Assembly: GCA_001725155.1 (NCBI GenBank)
Contig: MEFP01000012.1
Location: forward strand, 124,001-188,000
Reading direction: 5' to 3'
Source: Lysobacteraceae bacterium SCN 69-320
GTDB lineage: Bacteria > Pseudomonadota > Gammaproteobacteria > Xanthomonadales > Rhodanobacteraceae
DNA length: 64,000 nt
In this document: positions 31,297-46,968 of the stretch, piece by piece
Layout: every line of letters starts with the position of its first letter
Position numbering within the stretch: position 1 is the first letter of the stretch
The notes under the pieces: model-generated
What the model was told of the DNA's origin: nothing
Database searches by the model: none
What the model saw: only the letters and a program-made list of their open reading frames with translations
Program-made: the position numbers and the translations under genes

Positions 31297-33120
31297 ATGA
31301 CTGCCGCTTACGAGGCGCCGCGCTGGCTGCGCGATCTGCAGCGATTCCTTCCGCTCAAGAGCCAGTTCGTCCTGTCCGGCAACGTGCGCGACCTGCAGGC
31401 CATCGAGCTGCAGCCCGGCGTCGTGGCGCCGCAAGGGTTCATCCAGGCGCTCGCGGGCACCCTGGCCGCTGCCGGCTATGCGCAGGTCGTGCTGTTCGAT
31501 CCGGTCGCCGGCTTCCAGGTCGCCACGCCGCCGGGGACGTCGACGCAGACACCCGATCAGGTATTGCAGGGACTGGGGCTGAGCCCGGTCAACGGCGTGG
31601 CCGCGGCCGGCATCGACCTGCTCGGCGTCACCCTGGAACGGCTGACCAGCGCCAGCGGCGAACCGCTTGCGCTGATCGTGGATTTCGCCTCGCAGCTGCT
31701 CGTGCGCGCCGACGCGCCGTCGCCCGCGGAACACCAGTTGTTCACCCGCGCGCTGGTCGCGTCCCATCAGGCGCGCGCGCGGCCCGCCGGCAGCTCGCGC
31801 AAGCCGCTGTACAACGCCGTGCTGTGGGTCGTGGACAAGGAGGGCGATCTGCCGGACTGGCTGCTCGTCGGCAATCCGCGCCTGCGCCACGTGCCGGTGG
31901 CCCGGCCCGACCAGGTCGTGCGGCGCGCCCTGGCCCGGGCCCTGCTGCAGCCCCTGGCGGGCTTTGCCGAGAACCCCGGGCGGCAGCCGGACATCATCGA
32001 CGCGTTCGTCGAGAGCACCGAAGGCCTGCTGCTGCTGGAGCTGCAGTCCATCGCGATGCTGGCCCGCGTCGAAGGCCTGCCGGCCGCGCGCATCGCCGAC
32101 GCCGTGCGCCGCTACAAGGTCGGCGTGACGGAAGATCCGTGGCTGCGCATCGACCGCCACAAGATCGCCGGTGCCGAGGACATCGTGCGCCGCCGCGTGA
32201 AAGGGCAGGCGCATGCGGTCACCCACATGCTGGACCTCGTCAAGCGCGCGATGACCGGCGTCGGCGGCAACCGCCGCGGCAACCGTCCGCGTGGCGTGGC
32301 ATTCCTGGCCGGCCCCACCGGCGTGGGCAAGACCGAGCTCGCCAAGACCGTCACGAGCCTGCTGTTCGGCGACGAAAGCGCCTACATCCGCTTCGACATG
32401 TCCGAGTTCAGCGCCGAGCATTCCGACCAGCGGCTGATCGGCGCGCCGCCGGGCTATGTCGGCTACGACATGGGCGGCGAGCTGACCAATGCGATCCGCG
32501 AGCGGCCGTTCAGCGTCGTGCTGTTCGACGAGATCGAGAAAGCGCATCCGCGCATCCTCGACAAGTTCCTGCAGATCCTCGACGACGGCGTGCTGACCTC
32601 CGGCCGCGGCGACCGCGTGTATTTTTCCGAAGCGCTGATCGTGTTCACGTCCAACCTCGGCATCTACACGACGACGCCGGCCGGCGCGCGCGTCGCCAAC
32701 GTACAGGCCAGCGACGACTACGCCGTCGTGCGCCGGCGCGTGCTCGCCGAGATCGGCAACCATTTCAAGCTCGTGCTGAACCGGCCGGAGATCCTCAACC
32801 GCATCGGCGAGAACATCATCGTGTTCGACTTCATCCGCGACGACGTCGCGCGGCAGATCTTCCGCCAGATGATCGACGCGACCCGCCAGGATCTGCACGA
32901 GCAGGGCTTCGACGTGACCATCGACGAGGATTCGCTCGCCCGGCTCGCCGCGGGCTGTCTTGCGGACCTGTCCAACGGCGGCCGCGGTATCCGCAATCAG
33001 CTCGAGGCGAATCTGCTCAACCCGCTGGCGCGGCAGCTGTTCGACCAGGATGCCAGGCCCGGCGAGTCGTTCCGCATCCACGTGCGCGGCGACGGACAGA
33101 CGGAACTGCAGCGCGCGTGA
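31297..33120 (+). CDS. ClpA/ClpB-type AAA+ ATPase, first gene of the four-gene system
   Basis: The 607-residue protein has an intact ClpAB-type second AAA+ module at its C-terminus: Walker A GPTGVGKTELAKT (about 339), pore-loop-like GAPPGYVGYD, Walker B VVLFDEIEKAHP (about 407), sensor-1 FTSNLG, and a C-terminal small domain (NGGRGIRNQLEANLLNPLA). The first ~300 residues look like a second, degenerate AAA+ fold: FVLSGNVRDL and LALIVDFASQLL (Walker-B-like) are present without a GxGKT. There is no Clp N-domain, ClpB coiled coil or IGF/L ClpP-binding loop. It may remodel a protein or complex encoded in the same operon. It overlaps the next gene as GTGA. The RBS before ATG 31297 is weak. Confidence 0.88.
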   Translation: MTAAYEAPRWLRDLQRFLPLKSQFVLSGNVRDLQAIELQPGVVAPQGFIQALAGTLAAAGYAQVVLFDPVAGFQVATPPGTSTQTPDQVLQGLGLSPVNGVAAAGIDLLGVTLERLTSASGEPLALIVDFASQLLVRADAPSPAEHQLFTRALVASHQARARPAGSSRKPLYNAVLWVVDKEGDLPDWLLVGNPRLRHVPVARPDQVVRRALARALLQPLAGFAENPGRQPDIIDAFVESTEGLLLLELQSIAMLARVEGLPAARIADAVRRYKVGVTEDPWLRIDRHKIAGAEDIVRRRVKGQAHAVTHMLDLVKRAMTGVGGNRRGNRPRGVAFLAGPTGVGKTELAKTVTSLLFGDESAYIRFDMSEFSAEHSDQRLIGAPPGYVGYDMGGELTNAIRERPFSVVLFDEIEKAHPRILDKFLQILDDGVLTSGRGDRVYFSEALIVFTSNLGIYTTTPAGARVANVQASDDYAVVRRRVLAEIGNHFKLVLNRPEILNRIGENIIVFDFIRDDVARQIFRQMIDATRQDLHEQGFDVTIDEDSLARLAAGCLADLSNGGRGIRNQLEANLLNPLARQLFDQDARPGESFRIHVRGDGQTELQRA

Positions 33121-33770
33121 CCTCGGCGGACCTGCGCATCGCGATCTCGCGGCTGCATTTCCCGGTGACCACGCTGGGACCGGGACGGCGCCTGGGCCTG
33201 TGGTTCCAGGGCTGCTCGATCCGCTGCGCCGGCTGCATCTCCGCCGACACCTGGCGTTCCGGCAGCGCCGACACCACGCTCGCGCAACTCCTCGCGCAGC
33301 TCGCGCCGTGGCTGCAGCAGGCCGACGGCGTGACGATTTCCGGCGGCGAGCCGTTCGACCAGCCCGAAGCGCTCGCGGCTCTGCTGGACGCACTGCCGCT
33401 GCAGCCGCAGCAGGACGTGCTCGTCTACAGCGGTCATCCGTTGGAGCGGCTGCAGGCGACGGCCGCGCTGCGCAGCGGACGCATCGACGCGCTGATCTGC
33501 GATCCGTATGTCGGCAGCGCGCCGCAGACCCTGCCGCTGCGCGGCAGCGACAACCAGCGCCTGTTCCTGCTGACCGCGCGCGGCCGCGAGCGGTTCGCGC
33601 AGTACGCACAACCGCTGGACGAACGCGCCCGCGCGCTGGATCTCATGTTCGACGACGACGGCAGCGTCTGGCTCGCCGGCATTCCGCGGCCGCAGGACCT
33701 GCAGCGGCTGCGCGCACTGCTGCAGGCCCAGGGCCACCGGATCACGACTTCGGAAGCCAAGACCGAATGA
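33117..33770 (+). CDS. Small radical-SAM (NrdG/activase-like) enzyme
   Basis: The 217-residue protein has the radical-SAM iron-sulfur motif CSIRCAGC (CX3CX2C) in LWFQGCSIRCAGC and the GGEP motif in VTISGGEPFDQPE. Its size and layout match 4Fe-4S activases of the NrdG/PFL-activating type, not larger radical-SAM enzymes. No glycyl-radical enzyme is present in the window, so a conventional activase role is not supported. A role in modifying another product of this operon, or a nucleotide, is possible. The GTG start overlaps the AAA+ stop (GTGA) and its stop overlaps the next ATG (ATGA). The track ORFs covering this segment in other frames are shadows. Confidence 0.87.
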   Translation: MTSADLRIAISRLHFPVTTLGPGRRLGLWFQGCSIRCAGCISADTWRSGSADTTLAQLLAQLAPWLQQADGVTISGGEPFDQPEALAALLDALPLQPQQDVLVYSGHPLERLQATAALRSGRIDALICDPYVGSAPQTLPLRGSDNQRLFLLTARGRERFAQYAQPLDERARALDLMFDDDGSVWLAGIPRPQDLQRLRALLQAQGHRITTSEAKTE

Positions 33771-36700
33771 ACGCGCCGCTGATTCGCTTCTGCCCCGGTT
33801 GCCTGACCGAGCGCCCGCTCACCGAAGTGTTCTGCCAGGGGCAGCGCGACGGACAGCCGTGCCTGTGGACCCTGTCGGACGAACCGATGCGGCCGGGCGG
33901 CTGGCGCCCGCAGCCCGTCGTCACCGCGACAGCCGCTGCCGTCGCCACCCGCGCCGTCGCCGTCGCCGTCTGCACGCAGGGCCATGCGCTGGATCCGTCG
34001 GACCTGATCTGCGCGGTGTGCGGCGCCGATCGTGCGGAAGCTGCGCCGCCGGCGCCGGATGCCGCATCGTCGATGGCGGATGCGCCAACCGCGGCCGCGC
34101 CGGAAACCGTCATCGACGGCTGGCGCCTGCTGCGCCGCCTCGGCGAGACGCCGCGCGTGCGCGACCGCTATCTCGCCCGTCGCGACGGTGACGGACTGGA
34201 GGCCGTGCTGACGCTGTATCACCACGGCGCGGAACCCGATCCCGGTGTCTACGAAGTATTGCGGCGGCTGCCGGCCGAGCACGTGCCGGCGATCCATGCG
34301 GTCGGGCGCTGGAACGAACGTGCCTTCGAGGTCGCCGAATACCTGCGCGGCGGCTCGCTCGCGGACATCGGCCTCGTCGCGGCCGATCTCGCCGCCGTGC
34401 GCCACATCGTCGGCGAGCTGTCCAAGGCCCTGCAGTCCTTCGCCGAAGTCGGACTGCGCCATCGCGACCTGCGGCCGAGCACCTTGCTCGTGCGCAGCCG
34501 CGAGCCGCTGGACCTGGTGATCTGCGGATTCGGTTCGGCCCAGCTGTCGGACTTCGATCTCGACATCGTCTCGCCGCTGGAAGTCACGCGCTACATGGCG
34601 CCGGAGGCCATCGCCGGCGGCGTCGCCGCCGCGTCGGACTGGTGGAGCCTCGGCATGGTGCTGCTCGAGCAGATCACGCGCGGGCGCTGCTTCGACGGCG
34701 TCAACGAACGCGCCTGGCTGATCCATGTGCTGGCCAACGGCGCGGACATTCCGGCCGATCTCGATCCGTCGCTGGAACTGCTGCTGCGCGGCCTGCTCGC
34801 GCGCGACCGCCACCAGCGCTGGCAATGGCCGCAGGTGCAGGCCTGGCTGGCCGGCGAACCCGTTGCGGCGCCGCCGCGCGCGAGCGGCGCGGCCGACGAC
34901 GCGGACATCCCGTCGGTGACCCTGGCCGGCAAGTCCTATCGCCAGCCCGCGCTGCTCGCGCTGGCGGCGGCCGAGGCGGCTAACTGGCAGCAGGCCCGCG
35001 ACCATCTGGCCCGCGGCGTGTTCACGACCTGGATGCAGCAGGCGCGGCTCGATCCGGGCCTCATCGCCGGCGTGCGCGGCATCCTGCAGCGCGAGGACAT
35101 CGCCGAGGATTTCCGGCTGATGCTCGTGCTCAAGCGGCTGAATCCCGCCATGCCGCTGATCCATCGCGGCGACATCGTCACGCCGCGCTGGCTGCTGGAC
35201 CATCCGCTTCTCGGGTATGAACTGGTCAGCGGCGCGGTGCCCGACCTGCTCGGCGAATCGGCAGCGGAAAACTGGCTGTCGCAGCTCAAGGCGCGCGCGA
35301 CCGCAGTGCGCGCGCGGGCCGCGCAGCTGGAAATCCCGCTCGACGAAGGTTCGCTGCGCATCTACGTGCTGAGCTCCTCGCGCGCGAAGCTGTTCGCCGA
35401 ATGGGAGGAACGGCGGCGGGTTTTCCCCGACAGCACGCACCGCGGCGTGCAGACCCTGGCCGAACGCCCGGTCATCACCGACATTGATCTGATCGTGTTG
35501 CTGAGCGCGTCGTTCGGCCTGTTCCTGACCGTGGACACGCTGGTGGCGGATGCGGCCGACCTGGCGCGCAGCCACGGCGTCGCGGCGTTCGATGCCGCGG
35601 TCGCGAAGGCGCAGCTCGGGCAGACGCGCGCGCAACTGCTGCAGGCCGTCGGCGAGCGCGTCGAAGGATTCGCGGCCTGCGGTCATGCGGTGCTGGACGG
35701 CTGGGCCGAACAGTTCCGCGTCGAGCGCCGCCTGCCGCTGGCCCGGGCGCTGGTGCTGCTGGCCGTGGATACCTGGCGGCAGCCGGCGAAACAGCAGTAC
35801 GTCGAACAGATCCTCGGTTTCTTCGAGAAGCGCATGACGGCCGCGGTCATGCGCGGACCGCTGGTGCGCATGACGATAGGCCGCACGACCTCGCGCGTGG
35901 ATCTGGCCGAACTCGGCACGGCGCGGCAGCCGGCCGACGGCCTGCTCGACCAGCTGCTGCAGCGCGGACCCAAGGTCGCCGCGCTGGACCCGGCCGCCTT
36001 CGTCGACGGCAGCACGACCGAATACCGCCTGCAGAGCCTCGCGCGTCATACGCTGCTGTACCGGCGCGACACCGGCATCGACGGACTCTACCTGGGCTTT
36101 CCGTTCCTGCTCGTGCGCGATGCGCGCACGGCGGTCAAGACGCGCATCGCGCCGCTGCTGCTGTGGCCCGTATGCATCCATTCGCAGGTCGGCCGGCGCG
36201 GCGACATCGGGCTGTCGTTCGATCACGAGCGCGAGGAGGTGCGCCTCAATCCCGCGCTCGAAGGCCTGGTCGGGGCGGCCGCGGCGGTCCGTTGGCGCGA
36301 GGCGGCCGAATCGCTGCTCGGCCGTTCGACCCTGCGCGTGGCCGACGTGATCGACGCGTTCGGCGCCCTGGCGCTGCCGCGTCAGCGCAGCCTGCAGGCC
36401 GTGCCGGGGCCGGCGACCGAGCTGCCGCCGCGAACCAGCGCGCTCGCGTGCGCCGCGGCGCTGTTCCACGTGACGTTCAGCGGCCAGGCCATCGGCGCGG
36501 ATCTGGCGCTGCTCAAGCGCAAGTCGCTGGCCGGCACGGCGCTGGAGTCGGCCCTGCGCATCGGTTCGGCCGCGCCCGAGGCGGCCGCTGCCGCGCCGCG
36601 CGAAGCCGAGCGCTATTTCACGCTGGCCAGCGATCCGTCGCAGGAAGCCGCCGTGCTGGCCGCGCGCGCGCGGCCCGGCCTGCTCGTCGAGGGGCCGCCG

Positions 36701-39700
36701 GGCACCGGCAAGAGCCAGACCATCGTCAACATGGTCGGCGACGCGATCGGCCGGCACCGCAGCCTGCTGCTGGTCTGCCAGAAGCACGCCGCGCTCGAGG
36801 TCGTGCACAAGCGGCTCGTCGCCGAAGGGCTCGGCGATCGTGTCGTCATGGTCAACGACGTCAACAGCGACCGCACGCCGATCATCCGCGCCGTGCGCGA
36901 GCAGATCGAAACGCTGCTGCCCCGCCGCGACGACGATCCGGGCACGACCCTGCGGCGCCGGCGCGAAGCCGTCGCCGCGCGCATCGAGGCCGTGCAGGGC
37001 GAACTCGACCGGCAGCACCAGGCCCTGCATCGCATCGACGCCGCGACGGGACTGAGCTATCGCGCACTGCTCGGCGCCTTGCTGGATCTGGAAGCCGGCG
37101 GTGCCGTGCTCGACCTGCCGGCGCTGCGTACGCCGCTGCAGAAACTGTCGCCGGGGGAGCTGGCCGCGCTGGAGGAAGAAGTCGCCGCGCCGGCGCGGCT
37201 CTGGCTCGACGCCGCCTACGAGAACAGTCCGCTCGCCGCGCTGCAGGAATTCGCCGCGGACCCGGCCAGCATCGCCGAGTTCGAAGCGGCACTCGCGGCG
37301 CTGCTCGACGCCGAACGCGCCCGCGCGGCCCTGCCGGCCGGCGGGCCCGCGGCGTTCGAGCTCGACGATCCGCAGCCGTGGCGCGACTGGCTCGCGGCGC
37401 ATGCCCGGCGCTTCCTCGAACTCGACGCGACGCAGCGGCAGCGGCTGAGCGACTGGCTGGGCGCGTTCCGGCCGGTCGGCGCGGCGCTCACGCGCGGCCG
37501 CAAGCTGCTGGCGAGTCTGGAACAGCTTGCGCAGGCGCTGCGCGCCTGCCCGCGCCAGCATCACGATCCGCGCCTGTCGCCGCTGCTCGCGTGTCTGGCC
37601 GGTGCCGAACTGACGGTGCTGAAGGACTGCGCCGAGGAAGCGATCGCGCCGTCGTCCTGGTGGCAGCAGCTCAGCCCCGCGCGCTTCCTGCGCCGGCGCA
37701 AGGCCGCTGGGTTCCTCGCGCGTCACGGCGAGGCGGCGACACCCGAGCGCCTGACGGCGCTGGTCAGGGCCGCACAGCTGGAAATGCGCTGGCAGCCGCT
37801 GCGGCTCGCGCTCGCGGACGCGAGCCGCCAGCTCGGGCTGGACGAGATCGCCGCCGATGCGGGACCGGCCTTGCACGTCGAGGCCGCGAACGCGCTGCGC
37901 GCGCTCAAGGAGATGGCGGCGCTGGCCGACTGCCTTGGCGCCGCGCCGTGGTCCGGTCGCGCCGATGCCGCCGTGCGCGCGGGCACGGCGCAGGCGCTGG
38001 CCGATCTGTTCGCGCTGCTGCCGCCGGCCTTCGCCCGCTGCGCCGCACGCGCGCGCAGCCGCGCCGCGCTCGCGCCGCTCGCGCGCTGGATCGGCGCGGA
38101 CTGGCTGCGCGATGCCGAGGCGGCGATCGGCGCGAACGCGTCGAACCTGGCGCGGATCCAGCCCCTCGTCGATGCGCTGCCGACCTTGCCGGCGTATCAG
38201 CAGTTCCGTCCGCGGGCGCGCCGGCTCGGCGCCGCCGCGCTGGAAATCTTCACGCTGCTGCGCACGCGGGAAGACCGGCTGCGCGCGCTGCCGGCCGACC
38301 GGCTCGATGCGGAAATCCGCCGGCTGCTCAATCGCGAAGCGCTGCTCGCCTGGAAGCGCACGCGCGAGCAGGCCGAGCCGGAGCTGCAGTTCGGGCAGGA
38401 CGAGATCGGCGGCAAGATCGACAGTCTCGTGCGGCTGGACCGCGAGATGCGCGAGCTCAACCGCGCATTCCTCGCCGTGAATTTCGATTTCCCGAACATC
38501 GAAGGCACCTTGAAACCCTGGGAGGAAATCACGCGCCTGCGCGGCGAGCGCGCCCGGCGCCTGCGCGAATTCATCGAACTGGGCAAGCCGCTCGGACTCA
38601 TGAAGCTGCGTCCGGTCTGGCTCATGAACCCGGACGTCGCCAGCCGCCTGCTGCCGCTGCAGGCCGGCCTGTTCGACACGGTGATCTACGACGAGGCCTC
38701 GCAGATGCCGGTGGAGCATGCATTGCCGACCCTGTTCCGCGGCGGCGGCTGCGTGGTCAGCGGCGACGAGAAGCAGATGCCGCCGACGGCGTTCTTCACC
38801 AGCCGGATCGAGAACGACGAAGCGCAGGATTTCGACGGCGAGGAACCCGACGAGGACGCGACCGAGCAGGAAATCCAGGCCTACGACGAAACCTGGAACC
38901 GGCGCGAGATCAAGGACTGTCCCGACCTGCTGCAGCTGGCCCGCGCGACCTTGCCCAACACCGCGCTGCAGATCCATTACCGCTCGGCCTACCGCGCGCT
39001 GATCGACTATTCCAACGCCTGCTTCTACGCGAACACGCTCAACGTCCCGGTGCGTCATCCGCCGGCGACGCTGCGACGCGAGCGGCCGATCGAGATCGTT
39101 CGCGTCGACGGCGTCTATCGCGATCAGACCAATCCGGACGAAGCGCAGCGCGTCGTCGACCTGCTCGACGGACTGTGGCGCGCGCCGTACCCAGACCGCC
39201 CGTCGGTCGGCGTGGTCACCTTCAACCGCAAGCAGGCGGACCTGATCGAGGACTGCCTGGAGCAGCGCGCCGAAGCCGATGCGGATTTCCGCGAACGCTA
39301 CCGGCAGGAGCGCGAACGCGTCGACGGCGAGGAAGACATGGGCGTCTTCGTCAAGAACGTCGAGAACGTGCAGGGCGACGAGCGCGACGTCATCGTGTTC
39401 TCGTCGACCTTCGGCCGGAATGCCCAGGGCACGTTCCGCCGCACCTTCGGCGTGCTCGGGCAGAAGGGCGGCGAACGCCGGCTCAACGTCGCCGTGACGC
39501 GCGCACGCAGCAAGATCGTCATGGTCACGTCGATGCCGGCCGGCGAGATCTCCGACCTGCTGACCACGCGCCGCCCGCCGGCCACGCCGCGCGACTACCT
39601 GCAGGGCTACATGGAATACGCCCGCGCGCTGTCCGCCGGCGAGTTCGACAGCGCGCAGGCGCTGCTGCGGCGTCTGGCCTCCGGCACCGCCGAACGACGC

Positions 39701-40060
39701 GCCGCGACGGCGCAGCGGGCCGACGACGGCCTGACCCGCTCGGTCGCCGCCTATGTCGAATCGCTGGGCTGGAGCGTATCGGGCACGCCCGACGACGACG
39801 CGTTCCGCCTCGATTTCGCGATCGAAGATCCCGCCACCGGCCGTTTCGCGATCGGCATCGAGTGCGATGCGCCGCGCCACGCGCTGCTGGCCGGCGCGCG
39901 CGCGCGCGAGGTCTGGCGGCCCGGCATGCTGCGCAAGCATGTGCCGGTGCTGCATCGCGTGTCGTCGCAGGCCTGGTACCACACGCCGGAGATCGAGCGC
40001 GAACGCCTGCGCCGGGCGATCGAACGCGCCTTGCATGCAACTGCCCGGGAGATCGCATGA
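33767..40060 (+). CDS. Zinc-ribbon / pseudokinase / SF1 helicase / MTES_1575-type nuclease fusion
   Basis: The 2097-residue protein has two zinc-ribbon-like Cys clusters (about 9-32 and 69-86), then a protein-kinase fold (about 117-362). In it the VAIK Lys is absent (EAVLTLYHHG), the catalytic loop reads HRDLRPST and the DFG motif reads CGFG, so it is probably a pseudokinase. A DUF4011-like linker precedes an SF1 helicase: GPPGTGKS (about 974), VIYDEASQMP (about 1638), SGDEKQMPPT and NVAVTRARSK (about 1906). A C-terminal nuclease-like domain (about 1990-2097, FRLDFAI and IGIECDAP) matches the restriction-endonuclease fold MTES_1575. The ATG at 33767 overlaps the radical-SAM stop; the longer track ORF starts inside the AAA+ gene. 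Nucleic-acid processing in defence or repair is likely. Confidence 0.87.
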   Translation: MNAPLIRFCPGCLTERPLTEVFCQGQRDGQPCLWTLSDEPMRPGGWRPQPVVTATAAAVATRAVAVAVCTQGHALDPSDLICAVCGADRAEAAPPAPDAASSMADAPTAAAPETVIDGWRLLRRLGETPRVRDRYLARRDGDGLEAVLTLYHHGAEPDPGVYEVLRRLPAEHVPAIHAVGRWNERAFEVAEYLRGGSLADIGLVAADLAAVRHIVGELSKALQSFAEVGLRHRDLRPSTLLVRSREPLDLVICGFGSAQLSDFDLDIVSPLEVTRYMAPEAIAGGVAAASDWWSLGMVLLEQITRGRCFDGVNERAWLIHVLANGADIPADLDPSLELLLRGLLARDRHQRWQWPQVQAWLAGEPVAAPPRASGAADDADIPSVTLAGKSYRQPALLALAAAEAANWQQARDHLARGVFTTWMQQARLDPGLIAGVRGILQREDIAEDFRLMLVLKRLNPAMPLIHRGDIVTPRWLLDHPLLGYELVSGAVPDLLGESAAENWLSQLKARATAVRARAAQLEIPLDEGSLRIYVLSSSRAKLFAEWEERRRVFPDSTHRGVQTLAERPVITDIDLIVLLSASFGLFLTVDTLVADAADLARSHGVAAFDAAVAKAQLGQTRAQLLQAVGERVEGFAACGHAVLDGWAEQFRVERRLPLARALVLLAVDTWRQPAKQQYVEQILGFFEKRMTAAVMRGPLVRMTIGRTTSRVDLAELGTARQPADGLLDQLLQRGPKVAALDPAAFVDGSTTEYRLQSLARHTLLYRRDTGIDGLYLGFPFLLVRDARTAVKTRIAPLLLWPVCIHSQVGRRGDIGLSFDHEREEVRLNPALEGLVGAAAAVRWREAAESLLGRSTLRVADVIDAFGALALPRQRSLQAVPGPATELPPRTSALACAAALFHVTFSGQAIGADLALLKRKSLAGTALESALRIGSAAPEAAAAAPREAERYFTLASDPSQEAAVLAARARPGLLVEGPPGTGKSQTIVNMVGDAIGRHRSLLLVCQKHAALEVVHKRLVAEGLGDRVVMVNDVNSDRTPIIRAVREQIETLLPRRDDDPGTTLRRRREAVAARIEAVQGELDRQHQALHRIDAATGLSYRALLGALLDLEAGGAVLDLPALRTPLQKLSPGELAALEEEVAAPARLWLDAAYENSPLAALQEFAADPASIAEFEAALAALLDAERARAALPAGGPAAFELDDPQPWRDWLAAHARRFLELDATQRQRLSDWLGAFRPVGAALTRGRKLLASLEQLAQALRACPRQHHDPRLSPLLACLAGAELTVLKDCAEEAIAPSSWWQQLSPARFLRRRKAAGFLARHGEAATPERLTALVRAAQLEMRWQPLRLALADASRQLGLDEIAADAGPALHVEAANALRALKEMAALADCLGAAPWSGRADAAVRAGTAQALADLFALLPPAFARCAARARSRAALAPLARWIGADWLRDAEAAIGANASNLARIQPLVDALPTLPAYQQFRPRARRLGAAALEIFTLLRTREDRLRALPADRLDAEIRRLLNREALLAWKRTREQAEPELQFGQDEIGGKIDSLVRLDREMRELNRAFLAVNFDFPNIEGTLKPWEEITRLRGERARRLREFIELGKPLGLMKLRPVWLMNPDVASRLLPLQAGLFDTVIYDEASQMPVEHALPTLFRGGGCVVSGDEKQMPPTAFFTSRIENDEAQDFDGEEPDEDATEQEIQAYDETWNRREIKDCPDLLQLARATLPNTALQIHYRSAYRALIDYSNACFYANTLNVPVRHPPATLRRERPIEIVRVDGVYRDQTNPDEAQRVVDLLDGLWRAPYPDRPSVGVVTFNRKQADLIEDCLEQRAEADADFRERYRQERERVDGEEDMGVFVKNVENVQGDERDVIVFSSTFGRNAQGTFRRTFGVLGQKGGERRLNVAVTRARSKIVMVTSMPAGEISDLLTTRRPPATPRDYLQGYMEYARALSAGEFDSAQALLRRLASGTAERRAATAQRADDGLTRSVAAYVESLGWSVSGTPDDDAFRLDFAIEDPATGRFAIGIECDAPRHALLAGARAREVWRPGMLRKHVPVLHRVSSQAWYHTPEIERERLRRAIERALHATAREIA

Positions 40061-41400
40061 GCGGACCGAAGGTCGTACGCGTCGTCACGCGCGAGGAACG
40101 TCTGGCTGCCGCCAGGACCGCGCTGGCCCGGCTCGACAACGCGACCCGTGCCTGGACGGGGCAGGGCAGGGATGAAACGGAAACGAACGCGACGCGGGCC
40201 CGCCGCGACGCGCTCGCGGCCGCGCTGAACGGCAACGACCTCGCCGGTGTCGCCGAACGCATCGACGCGGAGACCGCCTTCCTGCGCAATGCGATCGAAA
40301 AACGCCGCCAGGATGCCATCGAGGCGAAAGCGGCCGCGCTGCAGCAGGCCCGGCAGCTGCGCGCGAACGCGCAGGCCCTGCTGCGCGAACTGGCCGCCAA
40401 GGGAGTCGGCGATGCCTCGCTCGATACCGCGCTGCGCCGGGTCCAGGCCGGCGAATGCAGCGCGGAGGACGCCGGACGCATCGTGCGCGAGGCGATCGGG
40501 AAACTCGTCGTACCCGCTGCGGCAGCGGTGCTCGACGAACGGCAGCGGCGCATCGCCGAGCGCCTGCGCGCGGCCGAGGAGCCGGCTGTCCATGCAATCT
40601 GGCAGGCGCCGGCCGATCCGCGCGAGCAGCGCCTGCGACGGATCGAGCAACGCCTCGCGGAGCTGTCGGGTCTGCTCGGTGACACGGCCGCTGCGGCGTT
40701 TGCGCAGCGGCTGCACGCGCTGGAATCCGCGCCGGCAGATGCGCGCGGCAATCTGCTCGCCGACAGCCTGATCGCCGACCTGCAGGCCGCCGTCGAGCAG
40801 GCGCGGCAGACCGCGGCACTGGCGAGGGCCGCGCAGGACCTGCTGGCGGAGATCGAATCCGCCGATGCCGTCGGGAGCCTGTCGACGCACGTCGACGCGT
40901 TGCGCCGGGCCATCGCCACCGGCGCTGCCGCAGCGCTGCGCGACGCGCTAGAGGCGGCCGGAGCGGCCTGGAAAACCCACGGCATGCAACAAGCGGCGCA
41001 GGCGCGCCGCGCGGCGATACTCGGCGGGCTGGCGGCCCTGGGCTATGAGGTGCATGAAGGCATGAACACGGCGCTGGCGAGGCAGGGACGCATCGTGCTG
41101 AAAAAACCGGCAATGACCGGGTTCGGCGTCGAGATCGCCGGCGCCGGCGACGCGGCGCGCCTGCAGGTCCGCGCCGTCGCGTTCGAACCCTCCCCCGACA
41201 GCCGCCGCGACCGCGACGCCGAGACCTCCTGGTGCGCGGACTTCCACCGGCTCGAAGCGATGCTCGCGCAGCAGGGGGACGGTGTGGCGGTGGAAAAGGC
41301 GCTTGCGATCGGCGCAACGCCGCTCAAGGTCGTCGAGGCGGCCGCGGGAAGCCCGGCCGCCATCGGACCGATGAGCCGCGACGCGCCGCATTTGCGCTAA
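40057..41400 (+). CDS. Coiled-coil protein closing the four-gene system
   Basis: The 447-residue soluble protein begins MSGPKVVRVVTREERLAAARTALARL and is Ala/Arg/Gln/Glu-rich, with long predicted coiled coils at about 60-130 and 175-290. The C-terminal ~110 residues (AAILGGLAALGYEVHEGM to the end) look globular, with beta-strand pattern VLKKPAMTGFGVEIAGAG. No enzymatic motif is recognised. Overlap with the helicase gene (ATGA) indicates coupled translation and a stoichiometric partner. It may be a scaffold or recognition subunit. The track's 1745-residue ORF in this frame includes a long shadow of the upstream gene; only this part is real. Confidence 0.8.
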   Translation: MSGPKVVRVVTREERLAAARTALARLDNATRAWTGQGRDETETNATRARRDALAAALNGNDLAGVAERIDAETAFLRNAIEKRRQDAIEAKAAALQQARQLRANAQALLRELAAKGVGDASLDTALRRVQAGECSAEDAGRIVREAIGKLVVPAAAAVLDERQRRIAERLRAAEEPAVHAIWQAPADPREQRLRRIEQRLAELSGLLGDTAAAAFAQRLHALESAPADARGNLLADSLIADLQAAVEQARQTAALARAAQDLLAEIESADAVGSLSTHVDALRRAIATGAAAALRDALEAAGAAWKTHGMQQAAQARRAAILGGLAALGYEVHEGMNTALARQGRIVLKKPAMTGFGVEIAGAGDAARLQVRAVAFEPSPDSRRDRDAETSWCADFHRLEAMLAQQGDGVAVEKALAIGATPLKVVEAAAGSPAAIGPMSRDAPHLR

Positions 41401-41544: not shown

Positions 41545-43017
41545 ATGAAACGACGCTTGGGCGAGTGGATAGGCGCGGCGCTGCTGGCCGCGGCAGTACC
41601 GGCAACGGCCGTCGCGGCGCCGGCAGCGGATTCGGCGGCACTGTGCCCGCGCCTGGGCTGGTCGGAGTTCCTGCCGTCGTTCCTCAAACCCAAGGCCGCG
41701 TTTCCGACCGAGGACACGCCGATCGGCGCGGTCGACTGCCAGTTCCATCAATGGTCGTGGGAAGCGTTCGTCTGGGCGACCGCGCTCGACGCGCGCGGCG
41801 CGCCGCGCTTTCTCGGCCTGCCCACGATAGGCGATCTGTCCGCCGGCCGTTCCGCTGCCGGCCCGCGCACCCTGACCCTGGCCACGCGCGGCCTGCATGG
41901 ACACAACGGCGCGATCGAAGGCACCGGCGCGATCGTCGAAGCCGACGGCAACATGCTTGTGGCGGCGAACGGCTATCCGGTCTACGCGTCGGTACACATG
42001 AACGACAGCTACTTCGCGACGGTCAGGCGCAACCGAGTCGCCACCGGCGACTACCAGCGCAATCCGGATTCCGACTACTTCGACGTCGGCGCGGCGGTGT
42101 TCAAGGCCACCTGGCTGCGGCTGGAACCCGGCCAGGCGCCGCCCGACGGCGCCTTCGTGACCAAGGCCCAGGTGCCGGTGCTGACGACGTTCCTGACCGC
42201 CGACAACACGCTCTACGCGACGCCGGACGGCACGACCGTGACGGTCGACGTGGCGCTGGTCGGGCTGCATGTCGTCGGCCAGACCGTCAATCACCCGGAA
42301 TTCCTCTGGGCGACCTTCGAACACAAGGACAACTCGCCGCGCTTCCGGGACGGCAGCTTCGATCCGACCTCGACGGCCAGCGATCCGCGCAGCTATACGC
42401 TGTATCGCGGCGGCACGCCGTTCGACCAGACCAACCAGCCGAGCACGCAGACCACGGCCAGCAGCACGGCCTCGCCGCTGTCGGCGCCGAGCACCACGAT
42501 CACCACGACGCTCGCCGCCACGCCGACCTTCACGTTCGATCCGGAAACGCAGAAGTTCTCGCCGGCCAGCAATGCCGTGCTGGCCAACCGCACGGGCGGC
42601 GAAACGTTTTCGCCGGACGGTCCGGCCAACATCGACAAGATCAACACGGCCGCGCACACCTTGCTGAACCAGCAGCCGCCGGCGCAGCGCCGTTTCGCGA
42701 ACTACGACCTGATCGGCACGGTCTGGATGCAGCCCGGCGCCTTCGGTCTGACGAGCAACCAGAGCAACGCGGTCGGCTCGGTCAATCTGGCCAACGTCAC
42801 GGCCGAAACCTTCGTGCAGAACTTCACCGGCACGACGACCCCGTCCACGGTCGGCAACTGCTTCTCCTGCCATAACGCCACGACGTTCCAGGACGTCGCG
42901 CCGATGCCGAACCTGAAAGCGCGGCGCATCGCGATCAGCCACGTCACAGCGGCGGGTTCGCTGTATGCGGTGCCGAACCTGCTGTCGGTCAATCCGCCGC
43001 CGGCGCCGACGCCGTAA
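41545..43017 (+). CDS. Secreted mono-haem c-type cytochrome-like protein
   Basis: The 490-residue product has a signal peptide (MKRRLGEWIGAALLAAAVPATAVAA) and one haem-binding motif CFSCH near residue 439. The bulk has no recognised domain; HQWSWEAFVWATAL and HPEFLWATFEH are tryptophan-rich segments, and a Thr/Ser-rich linker spans about 300-345. The ATG at 41545 has GGGGA six bases upstream; the track extends it by 20 codons. It is probably periplasmic or extracellular and redox-linked. A second haem protein of different design lies at 56245. No partner oxidase or reductase is adjacent. Confidence 0.82.
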   Translation: MKRRLGEWIGAALLAAAVPATAVAAPAADSAALCPRLGWSEFLPSFLKPKAAFPTEDTPIGAVDCQFHQWSWEAFVWATALDARGAPRFLGLPTIGDLSAGRSAAGPRTLTLATRGLHGHNGAIEGTGAIVEADGNMLVAANGYPVYASVHMNDSYFATVRRNRVATGDYQRNPDSDYFDVGAAVFKATWLRLEPGQAPPDGAFVTKAQVPVLTTFLTADNTLYATPDGTTVTVDVALVGLHVVGQTVNHPEFLWATFEHKDNSPRFRDGSFDPTSTASDPRSYTLYRGGTPFDQTNQPSTQTTASSTASPLSAPSTTITTTLAATPTFTFDPETQKFSPASNAVLANRTGGETFSPDGPANIDKINTAAHTLLNQQPPAQRRFANYDLIGTVWMQPGAFGLTSNQSNAVGSVNLANVTAETFVQNFTGTTTPSTVGNCFSCHNATTFQDVAPMPNLKARRIAISHVTAAGSLYAVPNLLSVNPPPAPTP

Positions 43018-43041
43018 GGTTCCGCTCTGGCCGGCGGTGCG

Positions 43042-43085
43042 CCGGATCGTCGCCGTCGCGTCGTCCGCGACGGCGCACGATCCGG
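43042..43085. terminator. Strong bidirectional hairpin between convergent genes
   Basis: Arms of 19-20 bases (ccggatcgtcgccgtcgcg / cgcgacggcgcacgatccgg) pair with one bulged base around a 5-base loop. It sits between the plus-strand cytochrome stop and the minus-strand hypothetical gene's stop, as expected for a shared terminator. Confidence 0.7.
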
Positions 43086-43099
43086 AACGGCCCCTCGCG

Positions 43100-43438
43100 T
43101 CAGCGGCTGCGGGTACGGGCCGCTTTCGGCTTTTCCTTCATGAACGTGACCTTCGCACCTTCCGGCAGCTGCGCCTTGAACGCCTCGAGCATGGCCTTCG
43201 CCGCGGCGTTCAGATGCGTTGCGGCGCCGCGGCTGGCCGTCGGGATCAGCGCGTGCAGGTTGGCCAGCGTCGTCGCATCGCGCAGCCAGGCGGGCTCCTT
43301 GCCGTCGATCAGAACCGGCGGGAGCGGATCTTCACGCCACCAGCGCCACGGCAACGTGCAGGGGACGTGGAAGCAGATTTCCCGCCCGAGATGGAAGGGC
43401 GGCGGACCGGGCAACCGGAAACAGACTCTCATGCACAT
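43100..43438 (-). CDS. Small hypothetical protein
   Basis: The 112-residue product begins MCMRVCFRLPGPPPFHLGREICFHVPC, so it has four Cys in the first 27 residues. It ends in a basic tail (KEKPKAARTRSR). There is no signal peptide or known motif. The gene is supported by an AAGGAG seven bases before the ATG at 43438, by clear flanking stops, and by the strong hairpin after it. It lies 214 bases downstream of the TPR-kinase gene on the same strand and may be co-transcribed. Its function is unknown. Confidence 0.6.
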   Translation of the reverse strand: MCMRVCFRLPGPPPFHLGREICFHVPCTLPWRWWREDPLPPVLIDGKEPAWLRDATTLANLHALIPTASRGAATHLNAAAKAMLEAFKAQLPEGAKVTFMKEKPKAARTRSR

Positions 43439-43652
43439 GGCGGACTCCTTTGCGGCGGGTCATGCACCCGGCGAAGCGCGGGTGTACGACTACCGGTGCA
43501 TCGGAGACGTCCGATCTCGCAGGGTCGCAGCGCCGTCCTGAGCCGCGCCGGGCCCCGGCAATGCGGAAGCCGGCTGTTGCGGAACCGGCAGGCGCGTGCG
43601 GAGCCGGGCTCTGCGGTGCACGGCCGGCGCAATCGCCGGGGCGGATACCCCG

Positions 43653-46409
43653 TCAGCGCGTCGCAGCGATCCGCTCGATCTGCGCCAGGACCGGCGAGGC
43701 GGGAACCAGCTCGGAACGTACTTTTTCGCGGATCTGTGCGGCCAGCGCAGCACCGCTGCGGCGGCTCGCAGGATCGGCGACCAGCACTTCGGCGCGATCC
43801 AGCCGGGACAGCCAGGTGCGCGGGTCGGTGTCGCCGAGGGTTTCGTGCAGGAGGTTTTCCCCGGCCGTGAATTCGGCCAGCGCCGCGGTGCGGTCGCCAC
43901 GGTGCAGCAGCACATAGCCGTGTTCGCGCAGATATTCGGCGCGATCCAGACCGGTCAGCCGCGGCGCGGCGCTGGCCGACTGCAGCCGCTCCGCGGCGCG
44001 CTCGGGGTGACCGCTGCGCCGCTCCAGTTCGGCCAGCGCGATCAGCGACAAGGTCGTGTCCTCGGCATCGTCGCCCTGGGCCGCGGCGCGGTCGCGGTAG
44101 CTCGCCAGCAGCGGCTCGCGCGCCGCGTCGAGCTTGCCCATGCGCGTGAGCAGCACGCCGTAGTCGGCCAGCACGCGGCACAGCACGCGATCCCGCGCGG
44201 GCCAGGTCTTGCGGAACAGGGGCATTGCCTGCGCGTAGGAGCGCTCCGCGGCGGCGTAGTCGCCGAGCCGGCGCTGGGCGACCGCCAAGTTGTTGAGCAT
44301 CACGGCGTAGGAGATCGAGTCCTTGCCCATTTTCCTGTCGGCGATGGCCAGTGCCTGCCGGAACAGCGGCAGGGCTTCGCCCGAACGGCCGGCGTTGTTG
44401 AGCAGGCGGCCGAGCTGGTTGTAGCGCCAGGCCATTTCGGCGCTGTCGGCCGGATCGAGCCGGCGCAGGCCCTCCAGCGAGGTGCGCAGCGCCTGCTCGG
44501 CTTCATCCAGACGCCGCGCCTGGCTGTAGGTCGAGCCCAGTCCTTCCAGATTGGTGTAGTAGTCGATGTTGTCGTCGCCGTGAAGCGCCGCGCGCAGCGC
44601 GAGCTCGCGGCGGAAATAGTCGATCGACCGCGTGTAATCCTGCTTGGCCCGGAAATGCACGGCGAGCATGTCGATCGCTTCGATGGTTCCGTCGCTGTTC
44701 GGATCGGCCGCTTCGCGGATCTGCAGCGCGCGCAACAGCAGCGGTTCGGCTTCGGCGTACTGGGCGTCCTCGGACAACACGACGCCGAGCTGCAGGGCCG
44801 CACTGGCCAGTTCCGGCGAATCGGCGGCGGCGCGCGCGCTGATCAGCGCATAGGCCTCGCGCACGTCGGCCAGCGCGGCGGGCTTGTCGAAAGCGGCCTT
44901 GAGCAGCAGGGCGCGCTGCTGCAGCACGTCGGCGAGCGGCAGCGGACGATCGAGCTGGCGCTCCAGCGCGACGGCGCGGTCGAAGGTCGCGCGGGACAGA
45001 TCATTGTTGCCCAGCAGCCGCTCGACGCCGGCCAGGGTCGCATACAGCTCGGCCTGCACCGCGGGCTGGCCGGCGAGCTCGGTGTCGATGCGCGCGAGCG
45101 CCTGCTCCACGAGCGTGGACGTCGGCACTTCGCCGCTGCCGGCATCCGGATGCGCCGCATTGAGCACCGAGGTCAGGAACGCGCTGATCTGCCGCGCAGT
45201 CTGTTGCGCCTGCACGGCGCGGTCGCGCTCGGCGGTCGCGGCGCGCTCGGCCTGTTCGGCGCGGTCGCGGTCGGCCAGCGCGACCCGTTCGGCCTGCTCG
45301 GCGCGGTCGCGGTCGGCGACGACGCGCAGGGTGAAGCCCATGATGACGGCCAGGAACACCAGCGCCGTCATGACCCAGGCCAGATGGCGCTGCAGGAATT
45401 TGCGTGCGAGATACGGCGCATGCGCGCCCATGGCCTGCAGCGGCTCGCGCGCGAGATAGCGCGCGATGTCGTGCGCCAGGGCGTCGACGCCGGCATAGCG
45501 CTGCGCCGGATCGGCTGCGGTGGCGCAGGCGACGATCGCATCGAGCTCGTCGTCGCGGCGCGCAGCGGCTTCGCCGGCGCCGGCCAGCAGGGTCTGCATG
45601 GTGCGGCCGATGCCGTAGACATCGGCCGTCGTCGAAATGGCAGCGCCGCCGCGCTGCTCCGGGCTGGCGTAGTCCGGCGTGAACGCGCGCACCGGTTCCT
45701 CCGCGACGACCGCCGCCGCGCCGTCGTGCAGCAGCTGGGCGATGCCGAAGTCCAGCAGCACCGGGCGGCCCTGCGCGTCGACGAGAATATTGCTCGGCTT
45801 GATGTCGCAGTGAACGATCAGGCGCTGATGCGCGAAGCTCACCGCGGCGCAGACGTCGGCCATCAGGCGCAGGATCGCGGCCGGCCCAAGCGCATGACGC
45901 CGGCAGTGTTCGTCGATCGGCACGCCGTCGACGTAGTCGATGACCAGATACGGCTGGCCGGCCGGCGTCGCTCCGCCGTCGAGCAGGCGCGCGATGTGCG
46001 GATGGTTCAGTCGCGCGAGGATCTGCCGCTCGCGCGCGAGATAGGCCAGCGCCTCGCTGCTCGGCACGCCGCGCAGCAGCTTGATCGCGGCGGTGTGCTC
46101 GAAATGCCCGTCGCTGCGCTGGGCCAGGAACACGCTGCCCATGCCGCCGTGGCCGATGCGCCGCACCAGGGTCCAGGCGCCGAGCACATCGCCCGGTTCG
46201 CCCTCGTCGCCGGCGATCTCCTCGAGCATGCCGAGGATGGGGCGGCCCATCCGCATCGTGGTCTGCCGCTCGTTGCCGAGCAGCGCGCGCACCTCGGCGA
46301 CGATGTCGGCGGCATCGGCAGCGGCGAGATGCGCCTCGCGCTGCGCCGGCTCCAGGTCGGCGACGGCGCCGAACAGCGCCTTGATGCGTACGTAGCGCTC
46401 AGCCTCCAA
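43653..46409 (-). CDS. Ser/Thr protein kinase with membrane span and TPR repeats
   Basis: The 918-residue protein has a kinase domain (about 78-340): glycine loop IGHGGMGSVF, catalytic Lys in AAIKLL, HCDIKPSN (HRD with Arg replaced by Cys) and DFG in LLDFGIAQ, so it is probably active. A membrane span (VMTALVFLAVIMGFTL, about 355) is followed by a repeated DRDRAEQAER coiled segment and about ten TPR-like repeats (about 440-900). The start is a TTG at 46409 with GGAGAG seven bases upstream, overlapping the sigma gene by 11 bases. This ECF-sigma/kinase/TPR arrangement is common in Xanthomonadales and implies a membrane-linked signalling pair. Confidence 0.87.
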   Translation of the reverse strand: MEAERYVRIKALFGAVADLEPAQREAHLAAADAADIVAEVRALLGNERQTTMRMGRPILGMLEEIAGDEGEPGDVLGAWTLVRRIGHGGMGSVFLAQRSDGHFEHTAAIKLLRGVPSSEALAYLARERQILARLNHPHIARLLDGGATPAGQPYLVIDYVDGVPIDEHCRRHALGPAAILRLMADVCAAVSFAHQRLIVHCDIKPSNILVDAQGRPVLLDFGIAQLLHDGAAAVVAEEPVRAFTPDYASPEQRGGAAISTTADVYGIGRTMQTLLAGAGEAAARRDDELDAIVACATAADPAQRYAGVDALAHDIARYLAREPLQAMGAHAPYLARKFLQRHLAWVMTALVFLAVIMGFTLRVVADRDRAEQAERVALADRDRAEQAERAATAERDRAVQAQQTARQISAFLTSVLNAAHPDAGSGEVPTSTLVEQALARIDTELAGQPAVQAELYATLAGVERLLGNNDLSRATFDRAVALERQLDRPLPLADVLQQRALLLKAAFDKPAALADVREAYALISARAAADSPELASAALQLGVVLSEDAQYAEAEPLLLRALQIREAADPNSDGTIEAIDMLAVHFRAKQDYTRSIDYFRRELALRAALHGDDNIDYYTNLEGLGSTYSQARRLDEAEQALRTSLEGLRRLDPADSAEMAWRYNQLGRLLNNAGRSGEALPLFRQALAIADRKMGKDSISYAVMLNNLAVAQRRLGDYAAAERSYAQAMPLFRKTWPARDRVLCRVLADYGVLLTRMGKLDAAREPLLASYRDRAAAQGDDAEDTTLSLIALAELERRSGHPERAAERLQSASAAPRLTGLDRAEYLREHGYVLLHRGDRTAALAEFTAGENLLHETLGDTDPRTWLSRLDRAEVLVADPASRRSGAALAAQIREKVRSELVPASPVLAQIERIAATR
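45209..45317 (-). repeat. 42-base tandem repeat in the kinase coiled segment
   Basis: Units beginning cctgcacggcgcggtcgcg, cctgttcggcgcggtcgcg and cctgctcggcgcggtcgcg start at 45209, 45251 and 45293, exactly 42 bases apart (the third is partial). They encode the DRDRAEQAER-type 14-residue repeat after the membrane span. Length variation between strains would be expected. Confidence 0.7.
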
Positions 46410-46968
46410 GGCCGAGCTCTCCGCGCAGCCAGGCGCGCGTGAAGCGCAGGTCGCGGTCGACCGAGGACAGCGACACGCCGAGCACCGCGGCGATCTGCTC
46501 GCGGTCCAGGCCGGCGAAATAGGTCAGGTGCAGCACCTGGGCGCCGCGCGGATCCAGCGTGTCGAGGCGGTTCAGGGCCTGGTCGAAGGCCAGCAGTTCC
46601 GCCGCCATCGACGGCTCGCCGCTGTCGATCAGCGACAGGCTGACGCCGACCGCCGCCTCGCCGCGCTTGGCGCTGCTGCGCGCGCGCGCGTGGTCGACGA
46701 GGGTGGAGCGGATGTATAGCGACATCGTCGCGAAGAAGTGCGCACGGTCCTTCCAGTCGCGCGGCGCATCGGCCACGCGCAGCAGTGCGTCGTGCAGCAA
46801 TTCGGTCGGCGTCAGGGTGACGGCCTGACTGCGGTTGCGCAGCCGCTGCACGGCGATCTGCTTGAGCTGGTCATAGGCCAGATCGACGACGCGATGGAAT
46901 GCCGCGCCTTCGCCGTCCTTCCAGTGGCGCAGCAGATCGGTCAGGGCGGGCGGCGGCGGTGGCGGCAT
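46399..46968 (-). CDS. ECF-type RNA polymerase sigma factor
   Basis: The 189-residue sigma-70-family protein of the ECF group typically paired with TPR kinases has a region 2 with LLHDALLRVADAP and HFFATMSLYIRSTLVDHARAR, and a region 4 with LHLTYFAGLDREQIAAVLGVSLSSVDRDLRFTRAWL. No anti-sigma gene is present; activity is probably controlled by the membrane kinase encoded downstream, which overlaps by 11 bases. The ATG at 46968 has no strong RBS. Target promoters are unknown. Confidence 0.9.
   Translation of the reverse strand: MPPPPPPALTDLLRHWKDGEGAAFHRVVDLAYDQLKQIAVQRLRNRSQAVTLTPTELLHDALLRVADAPRDWKDRAHFFATMSLYIRSTLVDHARARSSAKRGEAAVGVSLSLIDSGEPSMAAELLAFDQALNRLDTLDPRGAQVLHLTYFAGLDREQIAAVLGVSLSSVDRDLRFTRAWLRGELGLGG

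Follow-up and report, generated by a model that had tools for sequence, protein, structure and literature searches.

A recurrent four-gene operon in Lysobacteraceae bacterium SCN 69-320 joins a Clp-like AAA+ protein, a radical-SAM enzyme and a coiled-coil protein to a pseudokinase-helicase-nuclease: a candidate modular conflict system

The analysis of a stretch of 64,000 nucleotides (nt) from Lysobacteraceae bacterium SCN 69-320 (contig MEFP01000012.1; hereafter the window, by whose own numbering all positions are given) offers insights into an operon of four genes, here called the quartet, at positions 31297-41400 of the plus strand, on which all the features of these genes described below also lie. 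In order, they encode a Clp-like AAA+ protein of 607 amino acids (31297-33120), a radical S-adenosylmethionine (radical-SAM) enzyme of 217 amino acids with a GTG start (33117-33770), a protein of 2097 amino acids (33767-40060) and a coiled-coil protein of 447 amino acids (40057-41400). Adjacent open reading frames share 4 nt (GTGA, ATGA and ATGA, read directly in the DNA), exactly as an earlier note on this DNA had described them. That note had also proposed that the four genes form one system, and this survived a search for the same neighbours elsewhere: all four, in the same order and on the same strand, are found at 20 distinct loci, the overlap between the third and fourth genes is 4 nt in 9/9 systems measured, and this joint occurrence is therefore not due to chance. 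When pairwise distances are compared across nine complete systems, those of the four proteins also correlate (r 0.80-0.94). These observations confirm that the four genes are one unit.

The first protein contains an active D2-type AAA+ domain (32083-33117) of the ClpB type (AAA_2, 4.7e-44; ClpB_D2-small; PDB structures of ClpB D2), in which alignments (14 sequences) and a motif scan identify a conserved GYVG pore loop. Its sole P-loop is at residue 339, with Lys345 as the Walker A lysine. Residues 1-262 (31297-32082) give a confident AlphaFold2 (AF2) model (pLDDT 90.4) with an AAA+-like fold, for which the best Foldseek matches are FtsH, Vps4 and the D1 of p97 (E about 1e-4 to 1e-5, TM about 0.5), and which has no specific family in Pfam, NCBIfam or PADLOC scans. 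Because this N-terminal domain lacks Walker A, we consider it a degenerate D1, leaving the protein with one active ring, unlike ClpB and ClpA, which have two. The ClpP-docking IGF/IGL loop was found in the D2 of none of seven homologues. Taken together, the single P-loop, the pore loop, the missing docking loop and the degenerate D1 point to a protein that probably unfolds or remodels its substrates without passing them to ClpP. The earlier label of a ClpA/B-type ATPase thus applies to the D2 and not to the whole protein, which scores 267 bits against a cut-off of 1232 for the ClpB equivalog of NCBIfam.

The second protein had been described as a small activase-like radical-SAM enzyme, and we agree: it resembles the NrdG/PflA activases (Fer4_12, 2.4e-20; NrdG of NCBIfam, 1.1e-18, below that model's cut-off) and has the CX3CX2C cluster motif of glycyl-radical-enzyme activases (33213-33236), with C33, C37, C40 and the GG[ED]P motif conserved in 10/10 homologues. 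No glycyl-radical-enzyme family that could be its cognate partner was found by Pfam among the four quartet proteins.

The third protein has the architecture that had been read from its letters, as Pfam domains and an alignment of nine full-length homologues demonstrate. Two zinc-ribbon motifs (C9, C12, C23, C32 and C69, H73, C82, C85; 33791-34021), invariant in five homologues and also in the nine full-length sequences, are followed by a pseudokinase domain (34118-34837; Pkinase, 1e-16), a partial DUF4011 match (36011-36262), a superfamily 1 (SF1) helicase core of the UPF1/COG1112 type (36632-39532; AAA_11/AAA_12) and an MTES_1575, Vsr-like restriction endonuclease (REase) domain (39737-40021; PF18741, 1.2e-15) with a conserved LD[FL]A...IECD signature. 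In all nine homologues the beta3 Lys and the Asp of DFG (GFG here) are missing and HRD is kept, whereas the ECD motif of the nuclease (residues 2032-2034) and all the helicase motifs examined are intact. The Walker A lysine of the helicase is Lys982. Since kinase-type and helicase-nuclease partners are separate proteins in related loci (see below), the protein has the appearance of a zinc-ribbon/kinase arm fused to a helicase-nuclease, in which the kinase then decayed.

The fourth protein, which begins with MSGPK, has no family in Pfam, NCBIfam or PADLOC scans, and its AF2 model (pLDDT 82) has no fold match in the PDB. The model places a small alpha/beta domain (strand-strand-strand-helix-strand) at the C-terminus. 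Among 19 homologues drawn from every architecture presented below, the Gly that follows the last long helix is invariant or almost so, and Cys393 (codon 41233-41235) is the only cysteine conserved in all.

The 20 loci (the total after removal of two regions repeating earlier ones) span alpha- and betaproteobacteria, the order of the window and five Rhizobium and Caballeronia plasmids. Scanning contigs with the Clp protein gave complete quartets in the same order in Burkholderia, Bradyrhizobium and Sphingomonas, and a tblastn search of plasmids gave eight records (Caballeronia and seven Rhizobium) covering at least 80% of the third protein, all eight with the Clp protein and five of them read at gene level; the carrier plasmids are large, and some are conjugative Rhizobium plasmids. 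The quartet is patchily distributed, in about 1-5% of genomes: the full-length third protein occurs in 2/300 genomes of the window's order, in 1/369 of a class sample and in 10/200 of one family, matches at E 1e-150 or better occur in 4/200 of a second family, and the coiled-coil protein was found, as one copy, in the window's own genome alone among 61 relatives searched. Twelve regions fetched for the two family searches comprise 11 complete quartets and one that ends at a contig end. The frames are interrupted at three of the 20 loci (L084, L199, L226), and locus L190 has a broken third gene with no coiled-coil gene found; at all four the breaks affect the third gene, L199 also has a short radical-SAM frame, and sequencing error is a possible cause. 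On a proviral contig of IMG/VR (L168:8574-13795), a tyrosine integrase gene adjoins a third gene that starts only at about residue 831 and has an intact coiled-coil gene of the MSGPK type behind it; it seems that the quartet there either serves as an integration site or was cut by one. A viral origin of the quartet was considered and rejected, because an IMG/VR scan with the Clp protein gave only general ClpB-like matches, none with the N-terminal domain of the quartet, and this domain was not found in phage records either.

We also found that the Clp and coiled-coil proteins, usually with the radical-SAM enzyme, recur in three architectures. In the first, that of the window, this core accompanies the pseudokinase-helicase with its Vsr-like nuclease. 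The second is an operon of separate genes in the order SF1 helicase, PIN nuclease, coiled-coil, Clp and radical-SAM, present on plasmids of Moellerella, Polaromonas, Acinetobacter, Leisingera and Photobacterium (a search of E. coli for the operon of Moellerella found no copy, only Clp cross-matches). The third, seen in Aristaeella, Gaiellasilicea and a proteobacterial relative, has serine/threonine kinase (STK), FHA or PP2C proteins among its partners; at the Aristaeella locus these come with a separate DUF4011 helicase-nuclease (1308 bits against PDC-S37), and a Streptomyces locus (L010) has STK/PP2C/FHA-type partners, with no coiled-coil protein detected. Clostridia loci L007-L009 are an exception, having the Clp N-terminal domain with neither the radical-SAM enzyme nor the coiled-coil protein detected. 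Two contigs (L192:5142-8053 and L193:2576-5673) contain another branch of the Clp family, whose coiled-coil protein is short and begins MSATPKYS or MSGTPKYS; an FHA-like protein lies nearby on L193, and no radical-SAM gene is seen on the two contigs.

The radical-SAM enzyme had been singled out as the most unexpected member of the operon; it is less unusual than this suggests, since all three architectures have it alongside the Clp protein. As the loci that bear it have the Clp and coiled-coil proteins in common, its partner is more likely one of these two than the helicase. We considered two candidate target sites in the coiled-coil protein and rejected both. The MSGP N-terminus is not an obligate target, since the helicase-PIN systems keep the enzyme without MSGP and L192 and L193 have MSATP/MSGTP-type starts with no radical-SAM gene on the contig. 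The LGYxV motif, which its GY had raised as a possible glycyl-radical loop, was judged to be a helix-strand turn; the PIN class has F in place of its Y, and there is no Arg.

Several known systems resemble the quartet in part. The third protein shares the order DUF4011, SF1 helicase and MTES_1575/REase, with intact motifs, with Hhe, antiphage_ProA (we did not find the expansion of the name ProA in the literature searched) and PDC-S37, and belongs with them in a Hhe/ProA-like superfamily. It nevertheless scores 291 bits against an equivalog cut-off of 2000 for Hhe (NF042953) and 495 bits against 1500 for antiphage ProA (NF058533), the latter match, like that to PDC-S37 (465 bits), covering residues of about 945-2094. 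Compared to these proteins, it adds the zinc ribbons and the pseudokinase at its N-terminus, and its Clp, radical-SAM and coiled-coil partners are constant. For BREX, DISARM, Dnd and Zorya, no marker was found for the four genes among the PADLOC matches shown (the best 25 for the third protein), as had been claimed; what had been missed is the distant relationship to Hhe/ProA, which is a marker of a known type. Mokosh likewise combines a kinase-like domain with an SF1 helicase (MkoA match, 1.3e-48), the kinase of the window being degenerate. Mokosh has a PLD nuclease, whereas no PLD family is among the Pfam matches of the four proteins at E 0.01, and we know of no Mokosh counterpart of the Clp or radical-SAM proteins. 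With the MAD6 kinase of MADS and with PD-T4-6 only the kinase fold is common, and there is no methylation gene in the quartet operon. Finally, the predicted FtsH ternary conflict systems also place a radical-SAM enzyme beside an AAA+ ATPase; they have vWA-MoxR-FtsH cores, and no quartet of the present kind was found in that text (Kaur 2020, PMC7159879). Most probably, the quartet belongs among the helicase-nuclease conflict systems as a novel form, set apart by its Clp/coiled-coil/radical-SAM core.

A probable counterpart exists in Pseudomonas aeruginosa, in an operon that we take to be PA2725-PA2729, of which PA2727 and PA2728 appear in papers as helicase- or repair-annotated genes. A review published in 2025 on the pseudokinases of bacteria deals with a kinase family rather than a system, DLHK, fused to helicase/DNA2 domains, and mentions a P. 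aeruginosa DLHK operon with an ATPase, an organic-radical-activating enzyme and an unannotated gene (PMC12599244), a gene content that the quartet matches. The nine homologues of the window protein show the features of this family in the lost beta3 Lys, the degraded DFG and the retained HRD Asp, as well as in the catalytic-loop Arg (R236, Thr in one Rhizobium) and, on our inferred strand assignment, the two beta2 Arg (R132, R134). The Asn that the review gives as conserved at the end of the HRD loop is Thr239 in the window and is Asn only in the two aligned Rhizobium homologues. A second paper (PMC10250203) reports that in all isolates of P. aeruginosa a DUF4011 gene, with a radical-SAM gene beside it, flanks the defence hotspot cDHS1. 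Judging by the gene descriptions, both papers very probably describe the same operon as the quartet; no paper treating it as a system was found in the literature searched, which was thin in subscription journals and preprints. Indels have been reported in PA2727 of clinical P. aeruginosa clones (PMC4918941, PMC3697988), which together with the interrupted frames above suggests frequent loss of the quartet.

In the window, the quartet follows an exopolysaccharide cluster and is not in a defence island. On its 5' side are a bacterial sugar transferase, a hybrid histidine kinase and, farther out, polysaccharide-export and related genes; in an attempted empty-site comparison, the relatives of the sugar transferase within the genus were only 49-50% identical. 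On the 3' side (41545-46968), a protein that neither Pfam nor NCBIfam matches (41545-43017) adjoins a TPR-containing Ser/Thr kinase, followed by an extracytoplasmic function (ECF) sigma factor on the minus strand. An Rfam scan gave no match, and promoter and terminator scans gave chance-level results only. Some other copies do have defence genes nearby: Shedu is about 19 kb from that of Caballeronia, a type II methyltransferase, an IetA-like AAA protein and a PDC-S19-like DUF3644 protein are near that of R. leguminosarum Ta1k, and an HNH protein and a GajA-like ATPase are near that of Sphingomonas. At three alphaproteobacterial loci (L003:397-3807, L190:5735-7420, L225:16341-19427), an SF1 helicase gene adjoins the quartet; those of L003 and L190 are MkoA-like by PADLOC, and those of L003 and L225 resemble, by eye, TM0106-type RecB nuclease-helicases. 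Genes beside the quartet at L189:377-4324 resemble, by eye, the GTPase/GAP1-type conflict-system proteins of Kaur 2020; PADLOC had no match for the one protein tried.

Based on these results, we propose that the quartet is a horizontally spread modular conflict (defence) system, most likely anti-phage or anti-plasmid, a reading that we consider about evenly balanced between right and wrong. The sequences show the core from which this reading starts: a Clp unfoldase with one active ring and a coiled-coil adaptor, in most cases joined by an NrdG-like radical-SAM enzyme and coupled to an effector, which in the window is the pseudokinase-fused SF1 helicase with its Vsr-like nuclease. In the proposed model, the zinc-ribbon/pseudokinase arm, possibly left over, without phosphotransfer, from the STK/FHA/PP2C signalling of relatives, would keep the helicase-nuclease idle, and the coiled-coil protein would tether this effector to the Clp ring. 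Upon infection, the ring would thread or remodel the adaptor-effector complex and so free helicase-driven cleavage of foreign nucleic acid. The radical-SAM enzyme may licence the Clp or coiled-coil protein by radical modification, since these two are what the loci bearing it have in common. A stronger form of the proposal would define a hitherto undescribed class of immunity in which the unfoldase, radical-SAM modifier and adaptor licence helicase-nuclease effectors that can be exchanged for one another, and in which activation or safety would depend on the radical modification, perhaps close to Cys393; this form we regard as doubtful.

The defence reading, already offered in the earlier note, is plausible and unproven. 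It draws on the kinship to Hhe, ProA, PDC-S37 and MkoA, the patchy and plasmid-borne distribution, the exchange of effectors, the intact catalytic motifs, the broken copies and the defence genes near some loci. Several points weigh against it: the exopolysaccharide neighbourhood of the window copy and the ordinary flanks of several relatives, the choice of flanking defence genes by eye and without a background rate, and the reported presence of the probable P. aeruginosa counterpart as a core gene in every isolate (PMC10250203). Moreover, no phage experiment on the quartet was found in the literature searched, and we infer both the contacts between its products and the modification by the radical-SAM enzyme. 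The DUF4011 gene reported to flank cDHS1 in all isolates, the listing of PA2727 and PA2728 under replication/repair and the housekeeping genes beside the window copy and several relatives would fit a role in stress response or nucleic-acid quality control instead of immunity, with the Clp protein removing proteins from stalled nucleic-acid complexes, the helicase-nuclease resolving damaged or R-loop substrates and the radical-SAM enzyme acting in maturation. This explanation is the most credible of the alternatives and still rather unlikely, as the quartet is patchy in most lineages and carried by large plasmids, the nuclease type is replaced between otherwise similar cores, and the third protein is similar to Hhe/ProA.

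That similarity could also mean that the helicase-nuclease alone is a Hhe/ProA-like defence protein, with the other three proteins as regulatory or maturation add-ons and with radical chemistry having no immune part. Hhe is indeed annotated as a single anti-phage protein, and most other helicases in the order-wide scan match only the C-terminal helicase-nuclease part of the third protein. However, all the full-length third proteins whose flanks were read have Clp and radical-SAM genes upstream and a coiled-coil gene downstream, and the core also occurs without the window-type effector, so we find this quite improbable. Least likely of all is that the core is a signalling switch of the STK/PP2C/FHA kind, or an adaptor, for a non-immune process, the helicase being one output among several: such partners are present in Gaiellasilicea, Aristaeella, Streptomyces and a proteobacterial relative, but helicase and nuclease are the output in both other architectures, and the kinase of the window is degenerate. 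Weighing kinship and nearby defence genes against the ordinary flanks elsewhere, we therefore regard defence as the better supported reading, at even strength.

In conclusion, if the defence reading is true, radical chemistry and protein unfolding would be linked to nuclease-based immunity, and a function would be given to an operon already noted in P. aeruginosa, where its DUF4011 gene probably lies at the edge of a major defence hotspot. The invariant Cys393 of the coiled-coil protein is a testable lead. As the core is found with three kinds of partners, searches with the N-terminal domain of the Clp protein and with the coiled-coil protein offer a route by which further systems may be found.

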